Shown: positions 2,442 through 8,164 of the stretch, piece by piece | How the letters are laid out: each line of letters starts with the position of its first letter | Position numbering within the stretch: the stretch's first letter is position 1 | Source: Lachnospiraceae bacterium | Lineage (GTDB): Bacteria > Bacillota > Clostridia > Lachnospirales > Lachnospiraceae | Length of the DNA: 64,000 nucleotides | Direction: 5' to 3' | Assembly (NCBI GenBank): GCA_016284175.1 | Contig: JAEEOJ010000031.1 | Location: 17,713 to 81,712 of the forward strand | Program-made: the position numbers and the translations under genes | The notes under the pieces: model-generated | What the model was told of the DNA's origin: nothing | Databases searched by the model: none | What the model saw: only the letters and a program-made list of their open reading frames with translations

Positions 2442-3527
2442 CTATCGTTTTCTTAAGTTCCTTCTTACTCTGTTAATATGTCTTTCAAACTCTCCGCTGT
2501 CCAATAAATTCGATACGACAAGCTGTTCGAGAGTCGGTACCGGGCATGAATAAAACGATGTTTTTTCTTCGAATTTTTCAAGCAGATTTAACGGCAGGAG
2601 CATATACGCCATTCTTAAAGATGGAGAAATTGTCCTCGTAAAAGTATTAACATATATTACACACCCCTTCTTATCCATCGAGAAAATCGTATCAACAGCT
2701 TTTCTGGAGGGCGTGAATTCCGATTCGAAATCATCTTCTATTATTATTCCGCCTATTTCGTTGGCCCACTGTAAATATTCATTTTTCTTGCCGGCTGATG
2801 CACTGACACCCGTTGGAAAGCTTCTGTACGGAGTGATATGAAGAATACCTGCTTTACTCTTTCTTAACTCACTGCTTTCTATACCGTCCTTACCAAGTTT
2901 AAGAGTTTCCGTTGTTACCCCGTCAGATTCATATACTTCTTTAATCCTCGAATAACCGGGAGTTTCTATACCGTATATAACATCTGTTCCAAGCGTCCTT
3001 ACTATCATCGCATAAAGGTACTCTGCTCCGGCGCCAATCATAATCTGCTTGGGAGAAACATGAATATGTCTGCTTCGTAAAAGATACTCGCTTATGGAAT
3101 TTCTTAGTTTCATTATTCCGAAAGTCGGTGATTTCTGCATGATATCATCTGGCATTGTAGATAATACGTGTCTGACTGTTTTGGCATATACATCAAAGGA
3201 AAAATAATATGATTCGTCCTTAAAAGAATCGTTATATAATTTTAAGCCTGAAGAAGTTTCATCATTTATTTCCGTTTCTTTGTTTACAGTATTCTGATTA
3301 CCGTAAAAAGTATCTCCTGCTTCGTATACAACAAAGTAACCGCTCTTCTCGACACTTTCTATATAACCTTCATCCAGAAGAAGTTCATAAGCATGTTCAA
3401 CGGTTATTATGCTTACTCCCCACTGATCTGCCAGTGTTCTTTTAGAAGGCAGTTTGCTGCCTGTTTTATATACGCCTTCTGTTATTTCTTTTTTCAGGCT
3501 TTCATAAATAGATAAATACTTCTTCAT
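2442..3527 (-). CDS. MocR/GntR-type regulator with shortened, lysine-less aminotransferase domain
   Basis: 361 residues. The N-terminal ~75 residues are a GntR winged helix-turn-helix (SKRTLADQWGVSIITVEHAY). The rest is a fold-type I aminotransferase-like domain as in MocR, PdxR and GabR, with the recognisable IIIEDDFESEF block. MocR proteins normally use PLP as an effector through a Schiff-base lysine in a GTFSKTL-PSLR motif; here the matching segment reads NTFTRTISPSLR, with Arg (AGG) instead of Lys. The family is usually 450-480 residues, but this one stops with TAG right after the HINRVRRNLRKR helix, so the C-terminal small domain is missing. The 213 bases downstream show no continuation in any frame. 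It may be a decaying gene or a PLP-independent repressor. A TTGAAA-17-TAATAT promoter lies upstream. Confidence 0.85.
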   Translation of the reverse strand: MKKYLSIYESLKKEITEGVYKTGSKLPSKRTLADQWGVSIITVEHAYELLLDEGYIESVEKSGYFVVYEAGDTFYGNQNTVNKETEINDETSSGLKLYNDSFKDESYYFSFDVYAKTVRHVLSTMPDDIMQKSPTFGIMKLRNSISEYLLRSRHIHVSPKQIMIGAGAEYLYAMIVRTLGTDVIYGIETPGYSRIKEVYESDGVTTETLKLGKDGIESSELRKSKAGILHITPYRSFPTGVSASAGKKNEYLQWANEIGGIIIEDDFESEFTPSRKAVDTIFSMDKKGCVIYVNTFTRTISPSLRMAYMLLPLNLLEKFEEKTSFYSCPVPTLEQLVVSNLLDSGEFERHINRVRRNLRKR

Positions 3528-3704: not shown

Positions 3705-4268
3705 TTACAATTCGGCAAACTCTCCGCCGGCTGTATCGGTTTCATAATTACCGAAGCCGTATTCGGGCTCATTTTTCATAATTAAAAGAATGCTGATTGC
3801 ATACACAAGCGGAACAAAGAAGCCGATAATCGAAAGGATCAGTGCTTTCTCCGAATCACAACCGTACGTAACATGAATATCGTACATTTTTCTTATACTT
3901 ACGGCACAAATAAATACTGCAAGTGCCGCATCCAAAAGTTGTCCGAGAACAGGAACAAGGTTTAATCCTGCAATAATACCCGAACCGAAGTAAATGGCAA
4001 TTATGGAAACAATCGCAACCGTGGCTCTTTTATCTGTATCAACTATGTTGAAAATCTTGAAGTTTCTCTTAGGTAACGTGTATTCAAGATATGTCTGTGC
4101 AATAGGGATAAAAGCAAGCCAGGGATATTTGTGCCCTGCATTTTTAGCCATAACAAACAATGCAATTGCAGGAAGAAGGTAACCTGCAAGAAACGCTGTA
4201 AGGCCTATAACTCCGGCAATAACAACCGTAATAGTGTATGTAAACAAAGATGTAATAAATGTTATCAT
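3705..4268 (-). CDS. Conserved membrane protein of unknown function
   Basis: 187 residues with about four hydrophobic helices (near residues 8-40, 80-105, 110-130 and 145-165) and short polar loops, including the KNAGHKYPWLAFIPIAQTYLEY segment common in small clostridial membrane proteins. No catalytic motif is visible. It follows ppdK by 54 bases with an intrinsic terminator between them, so it depends either on read-through or on a weak promoter I cannot identify. A strong terminator closes the unit at 3663-3683. I do not recognise a specific function. Confidence 0.75.
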   Translation of the reverse strand: MITFITSLFTYTITVVIAGVIGLTAFLAGYLLPAIALFVMAKNAGHKYPWLAFIPIAQTYLEYTLPKRNFKIFNIVDTDKRATVAIVSIIAIYFGSGIIAGLNLVPVLGQLLDAALAVFICAVSIRKMYDIHVTYGCDSEKALILSIIGFFVPLVYAISILLIMKNEPEYGFGNYETDTAGGEFAEL

Positions 4269-4322: not shown

Positions 4323-6950
4323 TTAGTTTCTAGCGATTGCAGCCTGTGCAGCGGCAAGTCTTGCAATAGGAACTCTGAAAGGTGAACATGATACATAATC
4401 AAGTCCGATCTTGTCACAGAACTCTACTGACTGAGGATCTCCGCCGTGCTCACCGCAGATACCGATGTGAAGGTTAGGATTTACAGGCTTACCGAGTTTG
4501 ATAGCCATTTCCATAAGTTTGCCAACACCGGTCTGATCAAGCTTAGCAAAAGGATCGTTCTCAAAGATCTTTGTATCGTAGTAAGCTTCAAGGAACTTAC
4601 CTGCATCGTCTCTTGAGAAACCGAATGTCATCTGTGTAAGGTCGTTTGTACCGAAGCAGAAGAAATCAGCTTCTGTTGCAATCTCGTCAGCTGTAAGAGC
4701 AGCTCTGGGGATTTCAATCATTGTACCTACTTCGTATTTAAGATCAACGCCTGCAGCTTTGATTTCTGCATCTGCTGTCTCAACTACAATCTTCTTAACA
4801 ACCTTTAATTCCTTAACATCACATACAAGAGGAATCATGATTTCAGGCTTCATGTTCCAGTCGGGATGAGCCTTTGAAACATTGATAGCTGCACGAATAA
4901 CAGCCTTTGTCTGCATCTTTGCAATTTCAGGATATGTAACTGCAAGACGGCATCCTCTGTGTCCCATCATAGGGTTAAACTCATGTAATGAATCGATGTA
5001 TTCTTTAATCTTTTCAACACTCTTGCCCTGTGAATCAGCGAGTTTCTGAATATCAGCTTCTTCTGTAGGAACGAACTCATGAAGAGGAGGATCAAGGAAT
5101 CTGATAGTAACAGGACATCCTTCAAGAGCTTCGTATAACTGTTCGAAGTCACCCTGCTGATAAGGAAGGATCTTTTCAAGAGCTGCTTCTCTTTCTTCTT
5201 CCTTGTCTGAGCAGATCATTTCACGGAATGCAGCAATTCTGGATTCCTCGAAGAACATATGCTCTGTACGGCAAAGTCCGATACCTTCTGCACCGAGTTC
5301 TCTTGCTTTCTTAGCATCAGCAGGAGTATCAGCGTTTGTACGAACCTTAAGTCTTCTGTATTTGTCGGCCCATGCCATAACACGTCCGAACTCACCGGCA
5401 ATCTTTGCATCAACTGTTGCAATCTTACCGTCATAAATATTACCCGTTGTACCGTCGATTGATAACCAGTCGCCTTCATGGTATTCCTTGCCTGCAAGAG
5501 TAAACTTCTTATTAGCTTCGTCCATAGCGATTTCGCCACAACCTGATACGCAGCATGTACCCATACCACGAGCAACAACTGCTGCGTGAGATGTCATACC
5601 GCCACGAACTGTAAGGATACCCTGAGCAACCTTCATACCTGTAATATCTTCAGGTGATGTCTCAAGTCTTACAAGAACAACCTTCTCACCTCTGCCTGCC
5701 CATTCTTCAGCATCTTCTGCAGAGAATACGATACGTCCGCAAGCAGCTCCGGGTGAAGCGCCAAGGCCTTTGCCTGCAGGTGTTGCAGCCTTAAGTGCAG
5801 CCTGATCGAACTGAGGATGAAGAAGTGTGTCAAGGTTTCTCGGATCAATCATTGCTACAGCTTCTTTTTCTGTTCTCATACCTTCGTCTACGAGGTCACA
5901 TGCAATCTTTAAAGCAGCCTGAGCTGTTCTCTTACCGTTTCTTGTCTGAAGCATGTAAAGCTTTCCGTGCTCAACGGTAAATTCCATATCCTGCATATCT
6001 CTGTAATGATTTTCAAGAGTTTTGCAGACATCTTTAAACTGTGCGAATGCTTCGGGGAACTTCTCTTCCATTTCAGCTATCTTCATGGGAGTTCTTACAC
6101 CTGCAACAACGTCTTCGCCCTGTGCGTTTGTAAGGAATTCACCGAATAAGCCTTTGTTTCCTGTAGCGGGGTCTCTTGTAAATGCAACACCGGTACCACA
6201 GTCATCACCCATGTTACCGAAAGCCATTGACTGTACGTTTACTGCTGTACCCCATGAATAAGGGATATCGTTGTCACGTCTGTAAACGTTAGCTCTGGGG
6301 TTGTCCCATGAACGGAATACGGCTTTGATTGCACCATATAACTGCTCCTTGGGATCTGAAGGGAAATCTGTGCCGATTTTTGATTTATATTCAGCCTTAA
6401 ACTGATTAGCAAGTTCTTTAAGGTCATCAGCAGTAAGTTCTACGTCCTGCTTAACACCTTTCTTTTCCTTCATCTGATCGATGAGTTCTTCGAAGTATTT
6501 CTTACCTACTTCCATGACTACGTCAGAATACATCTGAATGAATCTTCTGTAGCAGTCCCAAGCCCAACGGGGATTGTTAGACTTCTCAGCGATAACGCCT
6601 ACAACATCCTCATTAAGACCAAGGTTAAGAATTGTATCCATCATACCGGGCATTGATGCTCTCGCACCTGAACGAACGGAAACAAGTAAAGGATTCTCAA
6701 GGTCACCGAACTTCTTACCGGTAATTTCTTCCATCTTTAAAATATACTCATCAATCTGAGCCTTAATCTCAGAATTAATTTCTCTTCCATCCTCATAATA
6801 CTGAGTACATGCCTCTGTTGTGATGGTAAATCCCTGAGGCACGGGCAAACCGATATTGGTCATCTCCGCAAGATTGGCGCCCTTTCCGCCAAGGAGATTA
6901 CGCATATCAGCGCTACCTTCTGTAAATAAATATACCCATTTCTTTGCCAT
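4323..6950 (-). CDS. ppdK: Pyruvate, phosphate dikinase
   Basis: 875 residues, the normal length for this family. It interconverts ATP + pyruvate + Pi with AMP + PEP + PPi in the cytoplasm, and in anaerobes it serves glycolysis or gluconeogenesis in a PPi-linked way. The N-terminal nucleotide-binding domain has GGKGANLAEMTNIGLPVPQGF and SVRSGARASMPGMMDT. The central swivelling phosphohistidine domain has GGMTSHAAVVARGMGTCCV (His near residue 455). The C-terminal PEP/pyruvate TIM barrel carries GIGLCRTEHMF, MMGHRGCRL and the catalytic cysteine in HIGICGEHGGDP. The start has AGGAGGA ten bases upstream. A leader of about 190 nt with a hairpin and a terminator-like structure precedes it (7013-7147), so attenuation control is likely. 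Confidence 0.98.
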   Translation of the reverse strand: MAKKWVYLFTEGSADMRNLLGGKGANLAEMTNIGLPVPQGFTITTEACTQYYEDGREINSEIKAQIDEYILKMEEITGKKFGDLENPLLVSVRSGARASMPGMMDTILNLGLNEDVVGVIAEKSNNPRWAWDCYRRFIQMYSDVVMEVGKKYFEELIDQMKEKKGVKQDVELTADDLKELANQFKAEYKSKIGTDFPSDPKEQLYGAIKAVFRSWDNPRANVYRRDNDIPYSWGTAVNVQSMAFGNMGDDCGTGVAFTRDPATGNKGLFGEFLTNAQGEDVVAGVRTPMKIAEMEEKFPEAFAQFKDVCKTLENHYRDMQDMEFTVEHGKLYMLQTRNGKRTAQAALKIACDLVDEGMRTEKEAVAMIDPRNLDTLLHPQFDQAALKAATPAGKGLGASPGAACGRIVFSAEDAEEWAGRGEKVVLVRLETSPEDITGMKVAQGILTVRGGMTSHAAVVARGMGTCCVSGCGEIAMDEANKKFTLAGKEYHEGDWLSIDGTTGNIYDGKIATVDAKIAGEFGRVMAWADKYRRLKVRTNADTPADAKKARELGAEGIGLCRTEHMFFEESRIAAFREMICSDKEEEREAALEKILPYQQGDFEQLYEALEGCPVTIRFLDPPLHEFVPTEEADIQKLADSQGKSVEKIKEYIDSLHEFNPMMGHRGCRLAVTYPEIAKMQTKAVIRAAINVSKAHPDWNMKPEIMIPLVCDVKELKVVKKIVVETADAEIKAAGVDLKYEVGTMIEIPRAALTADEIATEADFFCFGTNDLTQMTFGFSRDDAGKFLEAYYDTKIFENDPFAKLDQTGVGKLMEMAIKLGKPVNPNLHIGICGEHGGDPQSVEFCDKIGLDYVSCSPFRVPIARLAAAQAAIARN

Positions 6951-7012
6951 ACCTATTTGTTCCTCCTTTGAAACTCAGATTTTGTAAAACTTACAATAAC
7001 GGCAAATAAAAA

Positions 7013-7147
7013 CTAGGAACGTATCTTTACGTTCTTAATTTTCCCTAATAAGAAACGGCCTTAAATAACCGTTAAATATTCAATTCCTAGGTCTCGCCGG
7101 GATATATTTCAGAATAGAAACACTTTTCATTCCCGTGAAACCTAGAA
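7013..7147 (-). promoter_or_regulatory. Structured ppdK leader: candidate attenuator or riboswitch
   Basis: Reading the minus strand, a long helix pairs TTCTAGGTTTC (7147-7137) with GAGACCTAGGAA (7095-7084) and continues as CGGGA/TCCCG (7135-7131/7102-7098). Downstream, GAACGTA-AAGA-TACGTTC (7034-7017) is followed by CTAG and TTTTTATTT, a terminator-like hairpin. CTAGGAA, the 3' arm of the first helix, is complementary to TTCCTAG at 7019-7013, which overlaps the 3' arm of the terminator. The two structures therefore exclude one another, as in transcriptional riboswitches. I do not recognise the fold as a known class. If transcription starts at 7142, the outer 5 bp of the first helix would be lost. 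Confidence 0.55.
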
Positions 7148-7148
7148 T

Positions 7149-7157
7149 ATTATATCA
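7149..7157 (-). promoter_or_regulatory. Extended -10 promoter element of ppdK
   Basis: TGATATAAT, a perfect TATAAT (7154-7149) with an extended TG motif. No good -35 box is seen. The predicted start of transcription is near 7142. Confidence 0.55.
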
Positions 7158-7207
7158 CAAGAGAATAATTAGTTCCATAATTTTTTATACTTTATGTGAA
7201 CTAATTT

Positions 7208-8164
7208 TTATCCTTCAAATTCAACTGTGGCAGCTGTACTTCCGTCCGGATTAAGATAAACATATCTTAATTTAACTGTATCTTTTACGTTCGAAGGTAT
7301 TTTTACCATATCCAATGTCCTCTGTTTAACATCATCGGTAAAATAAGCATCGGTTTCTGCCTGAACATCTCCGACATTATATGCATATGTATAAGTATAA
7401 GTAAGTTCATTTCCCACACATTCACATGTTAAATCAGTATATGCATCAGGATTTGAAGCAAGTAACTGTTCTGCGTTTACATCCCAGTAATCAGTTCCGA
7501 ATGTGGATTCAAAATAATGCTGAACAGTGCCTTCCTCGGCATCTGTTTCAAAAGCTTTATATTCGGCATCCAAATCCTCATAAGCTACAACATCGGCTGC
7601 TACGGAACCGTCATTGTTATAGTAAATAAACTCCATTTCCATGGGATCTTTAACATCAATTACAGTACGTAAAGCATCAAAAAGTTTTCCTTTTGCGGAT
7701 TCTGTGTTTGTTTCAACTACAGCCTGCGCATCTCCGAGATAATCGGCATAATAATATTCATAAATCATTCTGTTACCGGAAAATGATACTTTCATATCCG
7801 TATAAACATTCTTGTATTCATCGGGAAGATTAGAAAAACTGTCTAAATACATTTTATTCTCGGGAGCCGTGAAGAAATCTTCAAGATTTTCATATGCATA
7901 TTCTTTTTCGGGAGCAGCCTCTTCATTCGGTTCTTGTTCTGTATCTTTATTTTCATTATTCAAACTATTGTTTAATTTTTCTGCGGATTCTTTAAATGCT
8001 TCAATGTCAAAATCATTCTCAATATCAACACCCAAATCTTCTACATATAAAGCCTCGGTTTCAGGTTCATTCTTAGAAGATGAAAGGTCGGGAAGTCCGC
8101 ATGCAGCAAGAGCACAAAAAGCAACAGCCGAAACAATTATTAAATACAGTCTTTCTTTTTTCAT
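7208..8164 (-). CDS. Secreted lipoprotein with two tandem DUF4854-like domains
   Basis: 318 residues. The N-terminus is a lipoprotein signal (MKKERLYLIIVSAVAFCALAAC) with a lipobox cysteine at residue 22. An acidic, asparagine-rich linker follows (to about 100), then two homologous domains of ~95 residues. Both copies share the pattern YxDLTxxxxGNxLxYxYxY, a helix rich in T/D/A, and a final Y-x-N-x-DGS-x-A strand (YYNNDGSVAA and YLNPDGSTAA). I associate this arrangement with DUF4854 lipoproteins of Lachnospiraceae, with moderate certainty. Function is unknown; it sits on the outer face of the membrane. AAGGAAA lies upstream of the start. It is followed by the ppdK promoter and preceded by the glyS terminator. 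Confidence 0.8.
   Translation of the reverse strand: MKKERLYLIIVSAVAFCALAACGLPDLSSSKNEPETEALYVEDLGVDIENDFDIEAFKESAEKLNNSLNNENKDTEQEPNEEAAPEKEYAYENLEDFFTAPENKMYLDSFSNLPDEYKNVYTDMKVSFSGNRMIYEYYYADYLGDAQAVVETNTESAKGKLFDALRTVIDVKDPMEMEFIYYNNDGSVAADVVAYEDLDAEYKAFETDAEEGTVQHYFESTFGTDYWDVNAEQLLASNPDAYTDLTCECVGNELTYTYTYAYNVGDVQAETDAYFTDDVKQRTLDMVKIPSNVKDTVKLRYVYLNPDGSTAATVEFEG

Follow-up and report, generated by a model that had tools for sequence, protein, structure and literature searches.

A conserved terminator-like hairpin in the ppdK leader of a Lachnospiraceae genus as a candidate NusA/NusG-assisted attenuator or pause site

We find that the leader of ppdK, the gene for pyruvate phosphate dikinase (PPDK), a key enzyme in the glycolysis of many gut anaerobes, carries a terminator-like hairpin (H3) that, judged from comparison of its sequence among relatives, is a real, conserved and genus-restricted element. 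H3 is probably an ordinary brake of a known kind. Its features point to an attenuator of transcription that leaks, or to a pause site, assisted by NusA and NusG, a reading to which we give an even chance. The view that the leader is a metabolite-sensing riboswitch or a two-state switch, put forward in a first-pass annotation of the window (the whole 64,000-nt stretch of DNA analysed here), is not supported, and we see no sign of a riboswitch in the sequences compared.

The complete ppdK gene (4323..6950, 875 aa; domains PF01326, PF00391 and PF02896) lies on the minus strand, as do all the promoter and leader features described below. Its predicted promoter (7149..7177) consists of a -35 element TGGAAC (7177-7172), a 17-bp spacer and an extended -10 element TGA-TATAAT (TGATATAAT, 7157-7149), which together place the transcription start at 7143-7141 (about 7142). 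This arrangement is position-conserved ahead of ppdK across the genus, including relatives whose leaders are otherwise different. An inverted repeat, ATTAGTTC...GAACTAAT (7206-7165, minus), lies between the promoter and the next gene upstream (7208-8164); it overlaps the -35 element and may be a weak terminator of that gene. Just 3' of ppdK are encoded a regulator of the GntR family and a protein of 187 aa with no Pfam match (2442-3527 and 3705-4268, minus).

The whole leader folds better than its dinucleotide shuffles (z -4.76, 0/200), and the predicted RNA contains, in order, a 5' hairpin (H1), a second hairpin (H2), the terminator-like H3 with the U-rich tract that follows it, and finally a small hairpin around the Shine-Dalgarno sequence. 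H1 (7090..7142; GGUUUC-CGGGA ... UCCCG-GAGACC, inner stem GUGUUUC/GAAAUAU) also folds well alone (z -3.8). The first-pass annotation had described it as a long helix beginning further out, and the sequences it quoted are all found where it placed them, on the minus strand ahead of ppdK; the helix itself stands, but its outer 'TTCTA' is probably mostly untranscribed, given the predicted start at 7143-7141. That annotation left out H2 (7054..7073; AACGGUU-AUUUAA-GGCCGUU), the Shine-Dalgarno hairpin and a segment complementary to the start codon. H3 (7008..7043) has the form GAAAAUUA-A-GAACGUA AAGA UACGUUC-C-UAGUUUUU, with a 1x1 A.C mismatch, and folds alone with z -4.5.

For comparison, the sequence ahead of ppdK was collected from 24 members of the genus and about 125 further genomes. 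Among 31 genus genomes, only G011 (99% identical) and G016 (91%) match the leader of this genome (G000) at the DNA level over its whole length, and H1 is present in these three genomes only. All variable H1 and H2 pairs remain paired in G016, including one U-G to G-C change; H2 is preserved there through U-G to G-C, U-G to C-G and C-G to U-G changes. In the remaining matching genus genomes the match is confined to the last 24-87 nt of the leader. Upstream of H3, the structure differs: this species has H1 and H2, a simple hairpin of 18 bp occupies the region in G013, G022 and G024, and others have an A-U-rich hairpin, with no sequence core shared between lineages in this region of the genus leaders compared. 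This pattern bears on the idea that the locus encodes a small RNA in its own right, about 140 nt long and with H3 as its 3' end, ppdK being expressed through readthrough. Such an RNA would have its own predicted promoter and a terminator-like end, but its body is not conserved between close species, most relatives matching only the 3' 24-87 nt, and the leader remains joined to ppdK; we regard it as very improbable.

H3, by comparison, aligns over nearly its full length in 11 genus members (nine distinct rows), with 14 pairs, four of which show changes on both sides; 95% of cells in the nine rows are paired, as against 42-55% when slid. Three further members, G010, G019 and G001, carry a recognisable form of the hairpin that has UAAG/CUUA in place of UAAC/GUUA and an inner stem altered on both sides. 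When these rows are added, hand-aligned on the paired positions, 93% of cells are paired versus 81% after shuffling, and the 12 double-changed cells are matched in 0/2000 shuffles, a significance that is overstated because the rows are related. The alignments indicate that H3 is homologous in the 14 genus members examined and has been kept by compensatory changes, so the first-pass claim of a terminator-like hairpin before the ribosome-binding site not only holds but applies to a structure under selection. In the PpdK tree, both forms of H3 fall in one supported clade.

Conservation of this kind could also reflect a binding partner. An RNA-binding protein that recognizes the H3 stem, with its 1x1 mismatch and A-rich loop, and controls termination in the manner of PRD-type antiterminators would fit the conservation of the stem UAA[C/G]GAAG and the adjoining mismatch between the two lineages. 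We nevertheless consider this quite unlikely, as the loop varies in length from 5 to 8 nt, the candidate protein CsrA is undetected in this genome and in nine hairpin-bearing relatives, and the known protein-binding leaders in Rfam give no match. A DNA operator, for which the stem would be read as a palindrome, is disfavoured because the spacing varies over the same 5-8 nt and G-U pairs are retained.

A covariance model of H3 and the downstream leader finds one strong match per genome, at ppdK, and no strong match elsewhere in 299 genomes of the family, with none outside the genus. The weak extra matches inspected in this genome mostly resemble gene-end terminators, and a scan of the genome contigs gave no leader of the H3 type among the matches listed. 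Even within the H3 clade the element is not universal: G007 has lost the hairpin and G028 has a short leader. Other short-leader members of the genus likewise lack H3 and, from its loss in G007 and its absence in such species, it is dispensable. G005 and G009, in the sister clade, carry a terminator-like hairpin of their own. Terminator-like hairpins scoring at least -16 occur in 5 of 107 other ppdK leaders.

The first-pass annotation had read the leader as a transcriptional riboswitch or attenuator in which H1 and a terminator are mutually exclusive, CTAGGAA from the 3' arm of the first helix pairing with TTCCTAG in the terminator. This model has in its favour the 8-bp complementarity CUAGGAAU:GUUCCUAG, present in this species and in the 99% identical G011. 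In the predicted transcript, however, H1 and this pairing compete for one base pair only, so that the two structures are barely exclusive and could nearly coexist. Forcing the pairing in G000 yields -33.1, compared with -40.7 for the terminator form, a cost of 7.6 kcal/mol. In G016, CCTAGGAA has changed to TCGATTAA, and because the 3' arm CCTAGGAATT there reads TCGATTAATT while TTCCTAG is kept, the proposed antiterminator cannot form. Nor does upstream complementarity to either arm of H3 exceed that of shuffled sequences in the leaders tested (p 0.18-0.95; 0.18 for the proposed pairing). The annotation had recognized no known aptamer core, and in agreement Rfam, searched with this leader at the gathering score and at E up to 10, returns only tRNAs and chance matches, and with 14 relatives no match; the leader is structured and unannotated. 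With no conserved core, and with the pairing already broken in G016, the switch model is largely refuted and we give it next to no credence. A leader peptide was also rejected: a 16-codon ATG frame at about 7130 has AAG in place of ATG in G011 and G016, and the other leaders have no conserved frame with a ribosome-binding site.

The strength of H3 suggests what it might do instead. Its eight outer pairs are all A-U or G-U, the 1x1 mismatch lies inside them, and the U tract that follows is interrupted (GUUUUUAUUUGCC); relatives have similar stems. Under the same scoring, leader hairpins of the H3 form have d-scores of -1 to -31, with a poor -15.5 for H3 itself, versus +4 to +21 for 11 clear gene-end terminators in the window. 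H3 thus falls short of those gene-end terminators in strength and, its U tract being short, it may not terminate at all.

Weakness of this sort is a known property of factor-assisted terminators. In Bacillus subtilis, NusG-dependent terminators combine a foot of weak A-U/G-U pairs with interruptions in the distal part of the U tract (PMC8060035), and NusA and NusG stimulate termination where a weak terminator contains mismatches or an interrupted U tract (PMC9226507). TTNTTT is a NusG pause/termination signal (PMC8060035, PMC12288461), and NusG residues N81 and T82 are reported to be critical for pausing (PMC12288461). Within the interrupted U tract of H3 lies TTATTT (7004..7009), a match to this motif. 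Among hairpin-bearing leaders, TTNTTT occurs 2-8 nt past the core stem in 13 of 17, versus about 1% per position overall, although a T-rich tract by itself makes it likely; it is missing in G001, G005, G018 and G024 and present in the unalignable G009. The NusG of this genome reads WYVVRNTRGVTGFV and carries the pause-promoting YVVRNT motif. We take the N and T of this motif to be the likely counterparts of the critical N81/T82, judging from their positions relative to the B. subtilis NusG sequence. With the motif at -11 to -6 and the hairpin 11-12 nt from the 3' end, as the pause register has them, RNA in a paused complex would end at about GCCGU (7003-6999).

Taken together, the weak foot, the mismatch, the interrupted U tract, TTNTTT and the YVVRNT motif of NusG suggest that an attenuator or pause site assisted by NusA and NusG would explain most of what is conserved; a weak element of this kind, aided by general factors, would account for the conserved features with no ligand. 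That pausing or termination occurs, that NusA and NusG act at H3 and that H3 has any regulatory role are inferences from these features. According to the proposed mechanism, RNA polymerase would initiate at about 7142 and the nascent RNA would form H1, H2 and then H3. There polymerase would pause on account of the weak A-U/G-U pairs at the foot, the mismatch within the stem and the breaks in the U tract, with NusG touching TTATTT on the non-template strand and NusA aiding closure of H3; some complexes would terminate and others would read through into ppdK, H3 thus setting the amount of ppdK mRNA, which may depend on elongation speed or on NusA/NusG activity.

The mRNA made by readthrough may be subject to further control. 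Directly 3' of the U tract, all long leaders carry UUUG[C/U][C/U], which in this genome reads UUUGCC (7001..7006) and is complementary to GGCAAA (6943..6948), the last base of the AUG together with ppdK codons 2-3; the predicted pairing probability is 0.82. Of the 15 leaders computed, 10 have predicted values of 0.5-0.97, whereas those of G007, G010, G017, G019 and G001 are low. Pairing of UUUGCC with the start codon region in the readthrough mRNA may lower initiation, and the modelled UUUGYY:GGCAAA interaction hints at a translational layer of ppdK control. Next to it, the predicted Shine-Dalgarno hairpin GUUUC-AAAGGA-GGAAC (GTTTCAAAGGAGGAAC, 6959..6974) holds AGGAGG (6967-6962); it is invariant in the nine-row alignment and has a single exact match in this genome. 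The hairpin is also nearly constant over much of the genus, even where the leader otherwise differs. In the predicted folds of leaders L022, L023 and L058 (G010, G019 and G001, respectively), an upstream ACCG-A-CCUC pairs with GAGG...CGGU around the Shine-Dalgarno sequence, a possible translational lock in place of the UUUGCC pairing.

These downstream elements allow an account with no role for termination, in which H3 and the upstream hairpins serve mRNA stability or processing (5' protection, an RNase stop), or translation is set by the UUUGCC:GGCAAA pairing together with the Shine-Dalgarno hairpin. A stable 5' structure, with no shared sequence there, occurs in nearly all hairpin-bearing leaders, H3 scores poorly as a terminator, and a six-base complement to GGCAAA is present in all 17 genus leaders that start AUGGCAAA, including G007, which has lost the hairpin; outside the genus it is present in 5 of 42 ppdK leaders, where 3.9 are expected. 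However, the UUUGYY site was for the most part inherited from a single event, and this account leaves unexplained the U-rich tract with TTNTTT that follows the hairpin in most lineages, among them the unalignable G009; we hold it to be unlikely. A combination of the two levels, in which the U tract of a NusG-dependent pause or termination site leads into UUUGCC, and UUUGCC then serves as an anti-start segment by closing the start codon in the readthrough mRNA, would be a new form of PPDK control through which elongation speed or the energy state of the cell sets PEP/pyruvate flux, and we offer it as a long shot.

If H3, on the NusA/NusG-assisted reading, does pause or terminate polymerase, it would provide a compact system in which attenuation of the NusG type could be tested outside Bacillus, and would caution that selected terminator-like hairpins in leaders are not necessarily riboswitches. 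A limited literature search found no description of leader-level control of PPDK. Transcriptional riboswitch leaders share with the ppdK leader a structured RNA and a terminator-like hairpin followed by the ribosome-binding site, but the ppdK leader differs from them in having no conserved aptamer, alternative pairing or Rfam match. The B. subtilis vmlR leader (PMC9226507) is similar in its succession of hairpins, a weak NusA/NusG-dependent terminator and then a Shine-Dalgarno hairpin; vmlR, however, is induced by antibiotics and contains both an upstream ORF and an antiterminator, whereas the search of the ppdK leader gave neither a conserved leader peptide nor an antiterminator. H3 also resembles the NusG-dependent, NusA-stimulated weak terminators of B. 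subtilis yetJ and ktrD (PMC8060035), with which it shares the weak A-U/G-U foot, the distal U-tract interruptions, a TTNTTT motif overlapping foot and U tract, and a NusG with the N/T pause residues. Those terminators were shown by Term-seq and in vitro transcription, whereas H3 is known from its sequence features and, in contrast to the yetJ and ktrD examples, sits in the 5' leader of ppdK.
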